Shown: positions 7,545 to 11,775 of the stretch, one piece after another | How the letters are laid out: each line of letters opens with the position of its first letter | Position numbering within the stretch: the first letter of the stretch is position 1 | NCBI RefSeq assembly: GCF_000148645.1 | Contig: NC_014541.1 | Span: forward strand, 1,302,001 to 1,366,000 | Reading direction: 5' to 3' | DNA: 64,000 nt | Origin: Ferrimonas balearica DSM 9799 | GTDB lineage: Bacteria; Pseudomonadota; Gammaproteobacteria; Enterobacterales; Shewanellaceae | Program-made: the position numbers and the translations under genes | The notes under the pieces: model-generated | Databases searched by the model: none | Seen by the model: the letters and a program-made list of their open reading frames with translations, nothing else | What the model was told of the DNA's origin: nothing

Positions 7545-8477
7545 TTAGTGCTGGTTGAGCAGGGCGATGATCTCATCGCTGCGCTGCAGTTGGCGCAGTT
7601 CACGGAACAGCTCGTTGGCCTGGGGATAGGCCTGGCGCAGGTAACCGAACCACTGCTTGATGCGGTTGGGGAAGTAGCGCTGTTTATCGCCGTACACCTC
7701 CAGGGTGACGTACTCATTCAGCACTTCTCGGATGGCGTCCCAGCTCAGCAGTTCAGCGTTCTCCTTTACCATGGCACCCAGGTTCGGGCGACACAGTGCC
7801 CCACGGCCAATCATCAGGTCCTGACAACCGGATTCCGCCTGACAGCGCTGGCCATCGCTAAAGCCATTGATCTCACCATTGGCGATCACCGGAATGGAGA
7901 GGGCTTTCGCCACCGGTGCAATGGCGCCCCAGTTGATGGCATCGGCCCGATAGCCGTCGGCCTTGGTGCGGCCATGGATGGCCAGTTCGTTGGCCCCCGC
8001 GGACTCGATGGCCTGGGCGATCTCCATGGTCTGGCTGGTGCATTCCCAGCCCAGTCGGATCTTAGCGCTCAGCACCTGATCCGCCGGTACCGCCTGGCGC
8101 ATGGCGGAAACGATGCGATAGAGGGTTTCCGGCTCCTTCAGCAGTACCGCGCCCCCTTTGGATTTATTGACGGTCTTGGCCGGGCAACCAAAGTTGATGT
8201 CGACACCCGGGCTGCCCAGCGCGATGGCCCGCTCGGCATTGTAAGCCAGCCAGTCCGGATCTTGGCCCAGCAGCTGGACCCGAACCGGGGTGCCATTACG
8301 GGTCTTGCCGCCATTCTCCAGCTCCGGCGCCAGCCGGTAGAACACCTTGTCCGGGATCGGCTGCTCGATCACCCGGATAAACTCGGTGACGCACAGGTCA
8401 TAGGGGTTGAGCTCACTCAGCAGCTGTCGCATCCGATGGTCTAACACGCCTTCCATCGGCGCCAGAATCACTCTCAT
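7545..8477 (-). CDS. dusC: tRNA-dihydrouridine(16) synthase DusC
   Basis: A 310-residue flavoenzyme that reduces uridine 16 in the tRNA D-loop using NADPH and FMN. It opens with APMEGVLD, the FMN-barrel start of Dus enzymes, and has the active-site FGCPAKTVNKSKGGAVLL segment with the catalytic Cys, LAIHGRTKADGY and PVIANGEI. The VLDHRMRQLL start and the overall size match DusC rather than DusA or DusB. Transcribed alone and divergently from hvfA; the ribosome site is weak. Confidence 0.92.
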   Translation of the reverse strand: MRVILAPMEGVLDHRMRQLLSELNPYDLCVTEFIRVIEQPIPDKVFYRLAPELENGGKTRNGTPVRVQLLGQDPDWLAYNAERAIALGSPGVDINFGCPAKTVNKSKGGAVLLKEPETLYRIVSAMRQAVPADQVLSAKIRLGWECTSQTMEIAQAIESAGANELAIHGRTKADGYRADAINWGAIAPVAKALSIPVIANGEINGFSDGQRCQAESGCQDLMIGRGALCRPNLGAMVKENAELLSWDAIREVLNEYVTLEVYGDKQRYFPNRIKQWFGYLRQAYPQANELFRELRQLQRSDEIIALLNQH

Positions 8478-8699
8478 TAAGCGCTTTTACTTTGGTTGAA
8501 ATCAGGGGGCGCAAGTGTACTCGCCAGCGTCGCCCTACACCAGTTCAGTGGCGAAAAAAAGGGCAAAACGGTGCTCAGTGAAAAAAATGTTGTTATGTTG
8601 TGAAAGAGAGATCCGGCTTGCTGGGTCTTCTTTGCTGAGCCAGGGCCGACACGGCTGCTGGATTCAACAATGGTTTCAACTGATTGAAAGGAACTGACG

Positions 8700-9083
8700 A
8701 TGAAGACTGTAAAGAAAACCACTGTTGCCGCCGCTCTGGGCGCCCTGGTTGTTAGCGGTGCTATGGTAGCCGGGGAAGCTCAGGCCAGCCCGTTTGGTAT
8801 TGATGACCTGGCGATGGGTTACCAAATCACTGGCGATAAAGGCACCGAAGGTAAGTGCGGTGAAGGCAAATGTGGTGAAGGCGAAGCCAAAGGCAAAGAA
8901 GGCAAGTGCGGCGAAGGTAAGTGCGGCGGCGAAGCCAAAGGCAAAGAAGGCAAGTGCGGCGAAGGCAAATGCGGCGGCGAAGCCAAAGGTAAAGAAGGCA
9001 AGTGCGGCGAAGGCAAATGCGGCGGCGAAGCCAAAGGTAAAGAAGGCAAGTGTGGTGAAGGCAAGTGCGGTGGGCACAGCTAA
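8700..9083 (+). CDS. hvfA: HvfA-type precursor of oxazolone/thioamide copper-binding peptide
   Basis: A 127-residue exported peptide precursor. Signal peptide is residues 1-29 (cleavage after AQA). After a short acidic linker, residues 50-125 are five repeats, each with two EGKCG motifs joined by (G)EAKGK, ten EGKCG in all. Cys residues are 53, 58, 70, 75, 86, 91, 102, 107, 118 and 123 and none lie outside the motifs. In Haemophilus influenzae HvfA, the EGKCG Cys is converted by HvfB/HvfC to an oxazolone with a neighbouring thioamide that binds copper; the same chemistry is inferred here because both partner genes follow. Good ribosome site AAGGAA. Likely role: periplasmic metal (copper) buffering. 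Confidence 0.9.
   Translation: MKTVKKTTVAAALGALVVSGAMVAGEAQASPFGIDDLAMGYQITGDKGTEGKCGEGKCGEGEAKGKEGKCGEGKCGGEAKGKEGKCGEGKCGGEAKGKEGKCGEGKCGGEAKGKEGKCGEGKCGGHS
8847..9074 (+). repeat. 48-base tandem repeat coding for EGKCG pairs
   Basis: Five units, period 16 codons (the first unit is 17), each coding for two EGKCG motifs. DNA of units is nearly identical, so copy number could change by slippage or unequal recombination and would alter the number of metal sites per peptide. Confidence 0.9.
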
Positions 9084-9099
9084 ACCCGGCCCGTGGTAT

Positions 9100-9127
9100 A
9101 AAAAGGCTGGCTTCGGCCAGCCTTTTT
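9100..9127 (+). terminator. Terminator/attenuator between hvfA and hvfB
   Basis: A perfect hairpin, AAAAAGGCTGGC-TTCG-GCCAGCCTTTTT, lies between the precursor stop and the enzyme start. It probably ends most hvfA transcripts and lets a fraction read through, giving many precursors per enzyme. No new promoter is obvious in the 23 bases between it and hvfB. Confidence 0.85.
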
Positions 9128-9150
9128 ACTGGTTAGCAAGGAGGTAGCGA

Positions 9151-9987
9151 ATGGGGTCTGTAAGTGGAGTTGGCCTGGGTCTGCGCCGTGAGATGGTCAA
9201 CGATTTCTGCACCGAGGGGGTGCCCGATGGCATCGACTTCCTCGAAGTGGCACCGGAAAACTGGATGCGGGTGAACCCCAGGCTGGCCCGTCAGTTTCGG
9301 GAACTGACCGAGCGCCACCCCTTTGTCTGCCATGGTCTCTCCCTGTCGATCGGCGCGCCTGCCCCGCTGGACCTCGACTTTGTGCGTCAGCTGAAAGCGT
9401 TTCTCGATACCCACCAGATTGAGGTGTACTCCGAACACCTTTCCTATTGCTCCGGCAATGCTCACCTGTATGACCTGATGCCCATTCCGTTTACCGAAGA
9501 GGCGGTGGCGCACGTGGCTGAGCGGGTGAGGGTGGTGCAATCCATTCTCGAGCGTCCGTTGGTACTGGAGAACGTTTCCTATTATGCCGCACCCGGCGCC
9601 CGGATGGATGAGCTGACCTTTATCAATGCGGTATTGCAGCAAGCCGACTGCGAACTGCTGCTGGATGTGAACAACATCTACGTGAACAGCGTGAACCACC
9701 GCTACGACGCCCGTACCTTCCTGGCCGGATTGCCCACTGACCGAATTCGCTATCTGCACCTGGCCGGACATTACCAGGAGGCGCCCGACCTGATTGTGGA
9801 TACCCACGGTGCTGCGGTGGTGGATCCGGTCTGGCAATTGCTGGAGGAGGCTTATGCCATTCATGGTGTGCATCCCACCCTGCTGGAACGCGACTTTAAC
9901 CTGCCTCCCATGGCGGAACTGATGACCGAGCTGGAGGGGATTGCCGCTCACCAGCTGGCGGCCGCCGAACGGAGGGCATCGGCATGA
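9151..9987 (+). CDS. hvfB: HvfB-type multinuclear non-heme iron oxidase (DUF692/MNIO)
   Basis: A 278-residue TIM-barrel enzyme of the DUF692/MNIO (BufB/HvfB) family, which oxidises Cys in peptide substrates using two or three irons. The metal-ligand segments can be followed in order: FLEVAPENWM, CHGLSLSIG, YSEHLSYC, LVLENVSYY, LLLDVNNIYVN, YLHLAGHYQE and DTHG, supplying His, Glu, Asn and Asp ligands. Expected reaction: conversion of EGKCG Cys in HvfA into oxazolone/thioamide. The start has a strong AAGGAGG. Its end overlaps hvfC by four bases (ATGA), so the two are translationally coupled. Acts in the cytoplasm before export of the precursor. Confidence 0.93.
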   Translation: MGSVSGVGLGLRREMVNDFCTEGVPDGIDFLEVAPENWMRVNPRLARQFRELTERHPFVCHGLSLSIGAPAPLDLDFVRQLKAFLDTHQIEVYSEHLSYCSGNAHLYDLMPIPFTEEAVAHVAERVRVVQSILERPLVLENVSYYAAPGARMDELTFINAVLQQADCELLLDVNNIYVNSVNHRYDARTFLAGLPTDRIRYLHLAGHYQEAPDLIVDTHGAAVVDPVWQLLEEAYAIHGVHPTLLERDFNLPPMAELMTELEGIAAHQLAAAERRASA

Positions 9988-10718
9988 GTGACTTTACTCA
10001 GGTGCAGCAGGCGTTTATCGACTACATTCGCTCGCCCCAGGCCGGTACGCCACCGCCGGGCACCGACGCCCGTCACATGGCGGTATACCGGGAGCTGTTC
10101 TTCAACAACGTGAGCGGCTTTGTCAGCAACGCCTACCCGGTGCTGAAAAGCCTGCACAGCGAGGCGCGCTGGACCGAACGCCTGCGCCACTTTTTTGCCG
10201 AGTACGATTGCCACAGCCCGCTGTTCGTCGACATCGCCCGCAGCTTTCTGGATTACCTTGAAGCTCAGCCAGAGCCGGAATGGCCGTTTGAGACTGAGCT
10301 GGCTCAGTACGAGTATCTGGAGCTGTGGGTGGATACCCAACCTCAGGTGACCGACCAACCCCGGCTTGAACAGCTCGACAACGACACCGCACTGGTGCGT
10401 TACCGGGCCAGTGCGCTGGGCACCTACGATTACCCGGTGCACCGCATCTCTGCGGAGCAGGACTGGCCCGAACCACAGCCCACCTTTCTGGTGATCTTCC
10501 GGGAGGGGGAAGCGGAGGTCCGTTTCAGCCAAATCAACCCGATGACCATGCAGTTGCTGCTGATCATCGATGATCAGCCGGGTATCACTTTGTCGGCGTT
10601 GGAGCAGGCCCTGGCAGCGCTGTTGCCACAACTCGACCCCGCCGTGTTGCGCTCCGGGATTGAAACGGTATTGATGCAGTTGGCCGAGCGGGGAATTGTG
10701 CGCCAGTACAAAAAATAA
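9984..10718 (+). CDS. hvfC: HvfC-type partner protein (DUF2063)
   Basis: A 244-residue protein of the DUF2063 (BufC/HvfC) family. The N-terminal part is the helical DNA-binding-like domain seen in the family (QQAFIDYIRSP, MAVYRELFFNNVSGFVSNAYPVL, FFAEYDCHSPLFVDIARSFLDYL), which in studied systems binds the precursor and presents it to the MNIO; the C-terminal part (about 150-244) has a winged-helix look. It overlaps hvfB by four bases. A DoxX-family HvfD gene, often next in such operons, is absent; the following gene is a tiny membrane peptide instead. Confidence 0.9.
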   Translation: MSDFTQVQQAFIDYIRSPQAGTPPPGTDARHMAVYRELFFNNVSGFVSNAYPVLKSLHSEARWTERLRHFFAEYDCHSPLFVDIARSFLDYLEAQPEPEWPFETELAQYEYLELWVDTQPQVTDQPRLEQLDNDTALVRYRASALGTYDYPVHRISAEQDWPEPQPTFLVIFREGEAEVRFSQINPMTMQLLLIIDDQPGITLSALEQALAALLPQLDPAVLRSGIETVLMQLAERGIVRQYKK

Positions 10719-10741
10719 GCCGCGCTTTTTCTGGGTGTTTG

Positions 10742-10764
10742 TGTGAGCTGTGTCACGCTAGAAT
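10742..10764 (+). promoter_or_regulatory. CRP-like site overlapping a -10-like element
   Basis: TGTGA-N6-TCACG at 10742-10757 is followed at 10759 by TAGAAT, a good -10 hexamer. If both are used, CRP would sit on the core promoter and would repress rather than activate the small gene at 10798. Confidence 0.35.
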
Positions 10765-10797
10765 GGCCGCGCAAATCAACCTGGGAGTATGCGTGTC

Positions 10798-10917
10798 ATG
10801 GCTGATAATAACTTTAAAGAACCTTTTAACCTGCTGCACTTCTTGGGTCTGCTGGCGGTACTGATGATCCCCACCCTGCCGGCCACCCTGACCTGGCTGA
10901 AACTGTTGAGCCAGTGA
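10798..10917 (+). CDS. Small single-span membrane peptide, 39 residues
   Basis: Not recognised. It encodes a charged N-terminus (MADNNFKEPF) followed by one hydrophobic helix (about residues 12-36) rich in Leu, with Pro at two places, ending in LLSQ. GGGAG lies at 10783-10787, ten bases before the ATG at 10798; an in-frame ATG at 10789 is too close to that site. It follows hvfC by 80 bases and has its own promoter-like sequence, so it could be independent of the copper-peptide locus. Role unknown. Confidence 0.6.
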   Translation: MADNNFKEPFNLLHFLGLLAVLMIPTLPATLTWLKLLSQ

Positions 10918-11229
10918 TCCCCGCGATTGCCGGGTGGTTGGCACACTGGTCAGCCACCCTGTGATCCACCGCACCTCTTTCTGGATTCCACTTCGGTTAC
11001 ACTCTTGTGACGATGACACCCATGGGTGGGTGGCGCAGACCTGTGCATTAGCCAGGGGGCAGTCCGAACCCGGTTGCATCGACCGGTCAAGGCGCTTAAG
11101 CTTAGGCCCCATCAACGCCCGACAGCGCGCTCGATCAGAACGCGACAGCGGCGCAGTCCAGCAAGGCCACAAGCCTACTGGGCTTTTTTATGGCGTGGTT
11201 AAAACCACCGAAGAGAGCCGAATAGAGCA
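10918..11229 (+). ncRNA. Structured non-coding region before apt; possible small RNA or leader
   Basis: Over 300 bases with no credible gene. A hairpin GGGTGG...CCACCC sits at about 10932-10959, a perfect 12-base palindrome CACCCATGGGTG at about 11018-11029, several complementary GC blocks follow (for example CCGGTT with AACCGG-like partners near 11069-11087), and the stretch ends in a hairpin plus T-run at 11171-11189. That shape fits a free small RNA or a transcribed leader attenuating apt. It does not match 4.5S, 6S, tmRNA or RNase P core motifs. The 99-codon frame that spans it lacks a ribosome site. Confidence 0.35.
11171..11189 (+). terminator. Short hairpin with T-run upstream of apt
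   Basis: AAGCC-TACTG-GGCTT followed by TTTT, 40 bases before the apt start. Confidence 0.6.
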
Positions 11230-11775
11230 ATGAACCAAGCATCACTGGCGCTGATCAAAGACAGCATCAAAGCCATTCCGGATTATCCCAAGCCGGGCAT
11301 CCTGTTCCGCGACGTGACCTCGCTGCTTGAGGACGCCGAAGCGTTCCGTCTGTGCATCGATGTCCTGGCGGAGCACTACCAGGACAAGGGTTTCACCAAA
11401 GTGGTGGGCACCGAAGCCCGTGGTTTCCTGTTTGGCGCACCGCTGGCCCATCAGCTGGGGCTGGGCTTTGTACCGGTACGTAAGCCGGGCAAACTGCCGC
11501 GCGAAACCATCGCGGAGTCCTATGAGCTGGAATACGGCCAGGACACCCTGGAGATCCACACCGACGCCATCGTTGAAGGTGACAAGGTGCTGGTGATTGA
11601 TGATCTGCTGGCCACCGGTGGCACCATCGATGCCACCGTTAAGTTGATCCGCCGACTGGGTGGCGAAGCGACCGATGCCGCGTTTGTCATCAACCTGCCG
11701 GACCTGGGCGGTGAAGCCCGTCTGAAGGCGCTGGGCCTGAATGTCCTGACGCTGTGTGAGTTTGAAGGCGAATAA
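11230..11775 (+). CDS. apt: Adenine phosphoribosyltransferase
   Basis: A 181-residue cytosolic purine salvage enzyme making AMP from adenine and PRPP. The PRPP-binding loop [14 protein letters not shown] is at about residues 118-131, the family motif [14 protein letters not shown] near 57-70, and [11 protein letters not shown] after it. Size is normal for the family. Start ATG at 11230 has only a weak ribosome site. A terminator follows, so it is separate from dnaX although the order apt-dnaX-ybaB-recR is conserved in enterics and Shewanella. Confidence 0.97.

Follow-up and report, generated by a model that had tools for sequence, protein, structure and literature searches.

Does an operon for an EGKCG-type peptide that carries no DoxX gene lack a maturation partner, or is this partner encoded elsewhere? 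The question is raised by the hvfABC locus of Ferrimonas balearica DSM 9799 (Gammaproteobacteria, Shewanellaceae; assembly GCF_000148645.1, contig NC_014541.1). The genome is a single contig of 4,279,159 bases (G000:C1), and the locus lies in a stretch of 64,000 nucleotides (nt), G000:C1:1302001-1366000, which is termed “the window” below. The gene hvfA codes for a precursor of the captophorin/oxazolin family of ribosomally synthesised and post-translationally modified peptides (RiPPs), hvfB for its maturase and hvfC for a recognition partner. An earlier note, made from the letters of the window alone, had reported that a DoxX-type “HvfD” is missing. This holds for the locus but not for the genome, where an HvfX equivalog is found approximately 470 kb away behind a promoter motif of the same type.

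An HvfX gene encoded in trans

Profile searches covered 60 genomes, the window's own and 59 relatives, and HvfC scored above its family cut-off in 39 of them. The 39 hvf loci were chosen and oriented by HvfC; many of the genomes are close relatives, and the counts are not independent. A second set comprises loci from named organisms, namely the best 80 of at least 582 confirmed ones.

Two genes of the F. balearica genome match Pfam DoxX, and neither lies at the hvf locus. One of them, G000:C1:1781598-1782182, yields 238.8 bits against NF050144, the HvfX equivalog model (cut-off 80; the model was run on the F. balearica protein only). Including the separate hvfA-type promoter, this gene spans G000:C1:1781536-1782182, and at a distance of approximately 470 kb it shows no genetic linkage to hvfABC. 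The product of the other DoxX gene is about 32% identical to HvfX in the DoxX region, reaches 41.7 bits against a profile of the trans-encoded set, and its gene is not preceded by the motif. The published name of the protein is HvfX, and the term “HvfD” does not occur in PMC13419390.

DoxX genes are also present in all 38 hvf-bearing relatives, where the closest same-contig pair among the matches listed lies approximately 26 kb from hvfC, several of the hvf contigs being short. In each relative, the DoxX protein with a frame of about 200 amino acids (aa) was taken as the HvfX counterpart. Over a stretch of approximately 125 residues, the identity of these proteins to HvfX amounts to 64-82% in the 33 genomes that belong to the same family and to 49-62% in the other five. 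A search with full-length HvfX in 28 genomes retrieved matches at E < 1e-40 in 7/7 hvf-bearing genomes and in one of 21 genomes without a full HvfC (G040). This contrast is tempered by partial, weak DoxX matches (E 1e-7 to 1e-9) in four more of the 21, and by the fact that the line at 1e-40 was set after the list had been inspected. Taken together, an HvfX-like DoxX tracks HvfC, being found in 39/39 genomes with HvfC versus 1/21 without (Fisher 5e-15). Because related genomes are not independent, the figure was also computed by family (6/6 versus 1/19, 4e-5).

Among the 80 named loci, eight encode an HvfX-family DoxX protein in the hvf flank that was retrieved (one cut by the contig end, one about 2 kb past hvfC), and these proteins are 55-69% identical to the trans-encoded HvfX. 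Judged by its sequence, the HvfX partner is thus encoded elsewhere on the chromosome and not lost. The literature searched holds no account of an unlinked HvfX with an hvfA promoter; priority is not claimed, and a survey, in its accessible text, cites the gene sets “in various combinations”.

A bipartite motif upstream of hvfA, hvfX and repair genes

The upstream regions of hvfA and hvfX have in common the motif TGAAA[T/G]-N17-GGTCT, which is present at a spacer of 17 in 31/38 hvfA upstreams (one locus with a truncated hvfA, L070, is left aside, and another, L069, measured from an internal Met, is scored as a miss). In its loose form, TGNAAN-N17-GGTCN, it precedes hvfA in 32/38 and hvfX in 31/39 cases, while the background in the hvf loci outside the hvfA upstreams amounts to 8 matches per 824,530 strand-nt, or 0.004 per 430 nt. 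A further form, TGWAAK-N18-GTCT, whose second element was widened to GTCT only after the msrP upstreams had been inspected, occurs upstream of hvfA in 29/38, hvfX in 23/39, msrP in 20/26 and msrBA in 2/24 relatives; at all other spacers from 13 to 22 the count is zero. This form totals 30 sites on both strands of the same loci, hvfA's own included. Upstream of hvfA in the named loci, the strict pattern is found in 36/80, and the strict or loose pattern in 44/80.

The whole F. balearica genome contains the strict pattern seven times, versus two for a reversed control. Six of the seven sites lie 57-99 nt 5' of the start codons of hvfA, hvfX, msrP, a gene for an MsrB-MsrA fusion, an AhpC/TSA gene and a LON-type gene; the seventh looks like chance. 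The identity of msrP is supported by NF003767 (324.9 bits, cut-off 207), and the AhpC/TSA gene product has a signal-like N-terminus. The LON-type gene was named by inspection, with its start assumed at an internal ATG, and its counterpart carries the site in two other genomes. No sigma-70 promoter-like sites were found in positions 8300-11300 of the window (shuffles 0.9).

The two half-sites at one spacing argue for control by an extracytoplasmic function (ECF)-type sigma factor, yet a number of observations pull the other way. The loose motif is missing from six of 38 hvfA upstreams, and at spacers of 12-22 other than 17 it is found before hvfA at four loci with 14 and at one each with 16 and 18 (before hvfX at none). 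The motif is also absent from eight of 39 hvfX upstreams, namely those of three genomes of the family and of every one of the five that do not belong to it, and the msrBA site is confined to F. balearica and two of 24 relatives. Counts of the strict pattern across 20 relatives total 194, versus 116 for the reversed control, which equals or exceeds the pattern in five of them; single sites in relatives therefore prove little. The genome contains 13 sigma-region-4 matches, many of which are response regulators by sequence, and the ECF candidates include an RpoE-like factor (named by inspection), a PRK12517-family sigma factor followed by DUF3379, and two others. A convincing own-promoter motif was found at none of the 13 regions, and no candidate sigma factor could be tied to the motif. 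Control of the NrsF/SigF type as in Caulobacter was considered and rejected, as the genome has no NrsF match.

In one relative (G012), 18 of 19 sites were fetched, the remaining one being that of hvfA. The motif precedes msrP and genes for DsbC (Pfam), AhpC/TSA, thioredoxin-like and other envelope proteins as well as response regulators, all apart from DsbC named by inspection, and several sites make no evident sense. This distribution suggests a wider envelope redox regulon. Among the leaders 3' of GGTCT (8629-8699 in the window) and their counterparts in relatives, many contain AAGCCAGC together with a CCAGC/GCTGG hairpin close to where the RNA is expected to start. A hairpin matched by at most 5/100 shuffles is present in 12/32 hvfA leaders and in 0/31 hvfX leaders; at 38/100 shuffles it is too weak to count as a feature of the window.

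The hvfABC operon

By gene content and order, the locus is an ordinary operon of the known EGKCG (oxazolin/captophorin) RiPP family (Table 1). An EGKCG precursor, HvfB and HvfC co-occur in 39/39 loci with the precursor before hvfB, one precursor being truncated by the end of its contig and another containing masked letters.

Table 1. Features of the hvf locus in window coordinates
Feature	Position	Strand	Remarks
Predicted ECF-sigma-type promoter, TGAAAG-N17-GGTCT	8601..8628	+	99 nt 5' of the hvfA ATG
hvfA, precursor of captophorin/oxazolin type, 127 aa	8700..9083	+	ten EGKCG; NF050137 domain
EGKCG repeat region, first to last of ten EGKCG	8847..9071	+	48-nt-spaced units, first divergent
Hairpin with T-rich 3' arm	9099..9128	+	predicted leaky terminator or mRNA 3'-end element
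hvfB, MNIO-type RiPP maturase (DUF692), 278 aa	9151..9987	+	PF05114, NF003818, PDB 3bww
hvfC, DUF2063 RiPP-recognition partner, 244 aa	9984..10718	+	PF09836, NF050145, PDB 3dee

Much of what the earlier note had read from the letters stands. The precursor contains ten Cys residues, every one of them within an EGKCG, and is followed by DUF692 and DUF2063 genes. Membership in the HvfABC family is borne out as well, and the proposed copper binding finds support in the homology to characterised members. The near-identical repeats are confirmed as 48-nt units, except for a divergent first copy. The ATGA coupling of the genes applies to the hvfB-hvfC junction, where the two frames overlap, but not to hvfA and hvfB, which are separated by a gap of 67 nt with a hairpin inside. 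The notion of a high site count was not upheld: among 37 scorable loci, the window included (L036, whose hvfA is masked in part, was set aside, as was L070), the number of EGKCG ranges from 5 to 16 (KCG, 7-16) with a median of 10, and 18 loci have more than ten and 10 have fewer. Ten sites, the median, are therefore unremarkable, and a relative with 58 Cys has been published (PMC12452194).

HvfA exceeds the cut-off of the EGKCG domain model by far (NF050137, 83.6 bits, cut-off 19.5). Its 68.9 bits against the HvfA equivalog model NF050188 fall short of the cut-off of 95, which speaks against a plain HvfA assignment; it is accordingly filed in the EGKCG family by motif domain, enzymes and context, and not as an HvfA equivalog. 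By eye, the N-terminus is signal-peptide-like, with a basic start, a hydrophobic core and an AQA-S junction. A second EGKCG precursor was sought in the genome and dismissed, since all four EGKCG-domain matches fall inside hvfA.

HvfB belongs to the multinuclear non-haem iron-dependent oxidative (MNIO) enzymes and reaches 351.5 bits with PF05114 and 437.3 bits with the HvfB family model NF003818 (cut-off 360). Its closest structural relative is PDB 3bww (E 3.6e-71), with 8hci and MbnB (7dz9, E 1.1e-10) more distant. The positions which we take to be the iron ligands (His, Asp, Asn, Glu) are invariant across the six sequences compared. PF05114 gives one match in the genome, and a second MNIO is thus rejected. 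HvfC yields 86.5 bits with PF09836 and 241.7 bits with NF050145 (cut-off 142), and its structural relative is PDB 3dee (E 8.1e-11). Within the named set, the HvfB nearest to that of the window, at 86% identity, belongs to a different strain of F. balearica. An HvfB 83% identical to that of Ferrimonas is found in a record named Marinobacter nauticus strain DP3N21-5, which looks misnamed. Just 3' of hvfC, an open reading frame of 39 aa with a hydrophobic stretch (window 10798-10914, + strand) has no Pfam match.

The hairpin between hvfA and hvfB recurs throughout the family. In a scan of the first 160 nt of the gap, as far as the tblastn start of HvfB, it was matched by at most 5/100 dinucleotide shuffles in 36/39 loci, versus 4/39 for windows of equal length inside hvfB. 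The stem letters vary by clade while the pairing is conserved (window and 35 other loci). It is predicted to be a leaky terminator or an mRNA 3'-end element giving an excess of precursor over enzyme. A reading as a plain terminator is weakened, because a T-rich tail, with 5 or more T among the 8 nt that follow the called stem, is present in only 18/39 loci and a generic scan of 8300-11300, which does detect the hairpin, is no richer than shuffles (2 sites in all, shuffle mean 3.8). At least 4 T follow in 29/39 loci, and in the window 3, part of the T run lying within the stem. The gap as a whole shows just a modest gain in folding over shuffled sequences (z -1.74, 15/200). An Rfam scan of leader and gap gave eight matches with E values of 5 or below, none of which attains its gathering score, and an Rfam assignment was rejected. 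Neither PMC12452194 nor PMC13097082 uses the words terminator, hairpin or stem-loop in its main text.

The operon resembles several characterised systems. The oxazolin operon HvfABCX of nontypeable Haemophilus influenzae likewise comprises an EGKCG precursor (with a signal peptide, putative in F. balearica), the MNIO HvfB and HvfC as partner with a RiPP recognition element, and both genomes encode an HvfX-family protein; it differs in having six Cys and hvfX within the operon, in contrast to ten Cys and an hvfX approximately 470 kb off in F. balearica. Fontiphorin (Fontimonas) also has EGKCG repeats and, like gonophorin (Neisseria), an MNIO combined with a PME1/DUF2063 protein. By this homology a 5-thiooxazole is expected in F. 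balearica; fontiphorin has seven modified sites, versus the ten predicted here. The mmrABC cluster of Microbulbifer is another three-gene ABC cluster for a copper-binding RiPP with EGKCG units in marine gammaproteobacteria, with fewer Cys (five to eight) than in F. balearica; the accessible text of the mmrABC paper does not mention DoxX.

Copper chemistry, regulation and the role of HvfX

The oxazolone/thioamide chemistry assumed by the earlier note has been replaced: two groups reassigned oxazolin to a 5-thiooxazole, formed with a loss of 4 Da per Cys (PMC13419390; PMC13097082). In vitro, FonBC removed 8 Da from a two-repeat substrate, and expression of hvfABC in Escherichia coli yielded modified oxazolin (PMC13097082). 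Related captophorins form 5-thiooxazoles and bind copper, and the authors allow for a part of DoxX in copper binding (PMC13097082). As the published B and C proteins modify alone, ring formation in these instances can do without a DoxX protein. The deduction that, with DoxX missing, oxidation may need another partner or none is therefore not supported, given this reconstitution and an HvfX encoded in trans.

Very probably, the F. balearica locus represents a standard captophorin operon with HvfX in trans and an ECF-type promoter shared with oxidative-damage genes, producing a copper-sequestering peptide. HvfC would present its substrate, HvfA, to HvfB, and this iron enzyme would oxidise the ten EGKCG Cys to 5-thiooxazoles (-4 Da each). 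Modified HvfA would reach the periplasm via its putative signal peptide, bind Cu(I) and sequester surplus copper in the envelope. Modification and copper binding are here expected by analogy with the relatives, while family membership, the trans-encoded HvfX and the common motif at fixed spacing are features of the sequence itself. Production would be governed by the promoter that hvfA and hvfX have in common with msrP, msrBA and the AhpC/TSA gene, and this shared promoter implies that the peptide is part of a response to oxidative damage of the envelope.

Known ECF regulons have a similar composition. RpoE2 of H. influenzae governs msrAB, mtsZ and the doxX-hvf cluster upon hypochlorite and has been likened to Neisseria SigE (PMC7907618). 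The SigF regulon of Caulobacter takes in a gene of the YedY/MsrP type as well as clusters of DUF2282-DUF692-DUF2063, DoxX being part of one of them, while the msrA genes are unresponsive (PMC3511200). In all three systems precursor, MNIO, DUF2063 and DoxX genes, together with methionine-sulfoxide-reductase or YedY/MsrP-type genes, depend on one ECF sigma factor. As the RpoE2 and SigF regulons hold the same gene types, the Ferrimonas set has the same modules with a free-standing HvfX; it differs in that hvfX lies apart from hvfABC with a promoter copy to itself, and a search for NrsF gave no match in the genome.

Two alternative views of the regulation deserve consideration. The operon might be a dedicated copper response, induced by copper through a copper regulator and linked to oxidative stress only incidentally. 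Captophorins bind copper, their pathways are induced by excess copper among other stresses (PMC13097082), and bufferins improve growth under copper stress (PMC12452194). Such a view is unlikely in the light of the motif that hvfA has in common with hvfX, msrP, msrBA and the AhpC/TSA gene and of the induction of the H. influenzae homologues by hypochlorite through RpoE2 (PMC7907618); moreover, none of the seven F. balearica sites precedes a recognised copper exporter, sites for copper regulators not having been searched for. That the bipartite motif is an ordinary transcription-factor site would agree with the failure to tie it to a sigma factor or to find a convincing autoregulated sigma gene. 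We regard this as very unlikely, as two asymmetric half-sites at one spacing, 57-99 nt before the starts of six genes, look like the -35 and -10 elements of ECF promoters, and known ECF regulons have a matching set of genes.

The trans-encoded HvfX, in turn, could have a general thiol or oxidant function and no part in captophorin maturation. B and C are enough in the published reconstitution, H. influenzae HvfX is termed as yet uncharacterised (PMC13419390), and the F. balearica gene sits among oxidative-damage genes; the presence of HvfX nevertheless follows HvfC (39/39 versus 1/21 genomes), and 8/80 named loci have an HvfX-family DoxX protein near hvfBC, which renders a purely general role rather doubtful. 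Tentatively, and somewhat short of an even call, we propose that the Ferrimonas and Shewanella relatives employ a split captophorin pathway, in which a free-standing hvfX is controlled by the ECF-type promoter of hvfABC and msrP. A single, distributed regulon for envelope oxidation would then unite peptide maturation, HvfX and the repair of methionine sulfoxide.

An unlinked hvfX behind a matching promoter fills the supposed gap in the F. balearica pathway, and it can be deleted leaving hvfABC intact, which offers a clean route to the function of HvfX. If the proposed split regulon exists, the peptide would serve mainly to retain copper, and as a sacrificial thiol, under attack by oxidants, and the hvfA-hvfB hairpin would determine its excess over the modifying enzymes. 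From the promoter in common with msrP, this marine metal-reducing bacterium is predicted to switch the pathway on upon oxidant damage to the envelope, and not in response to copper alone.

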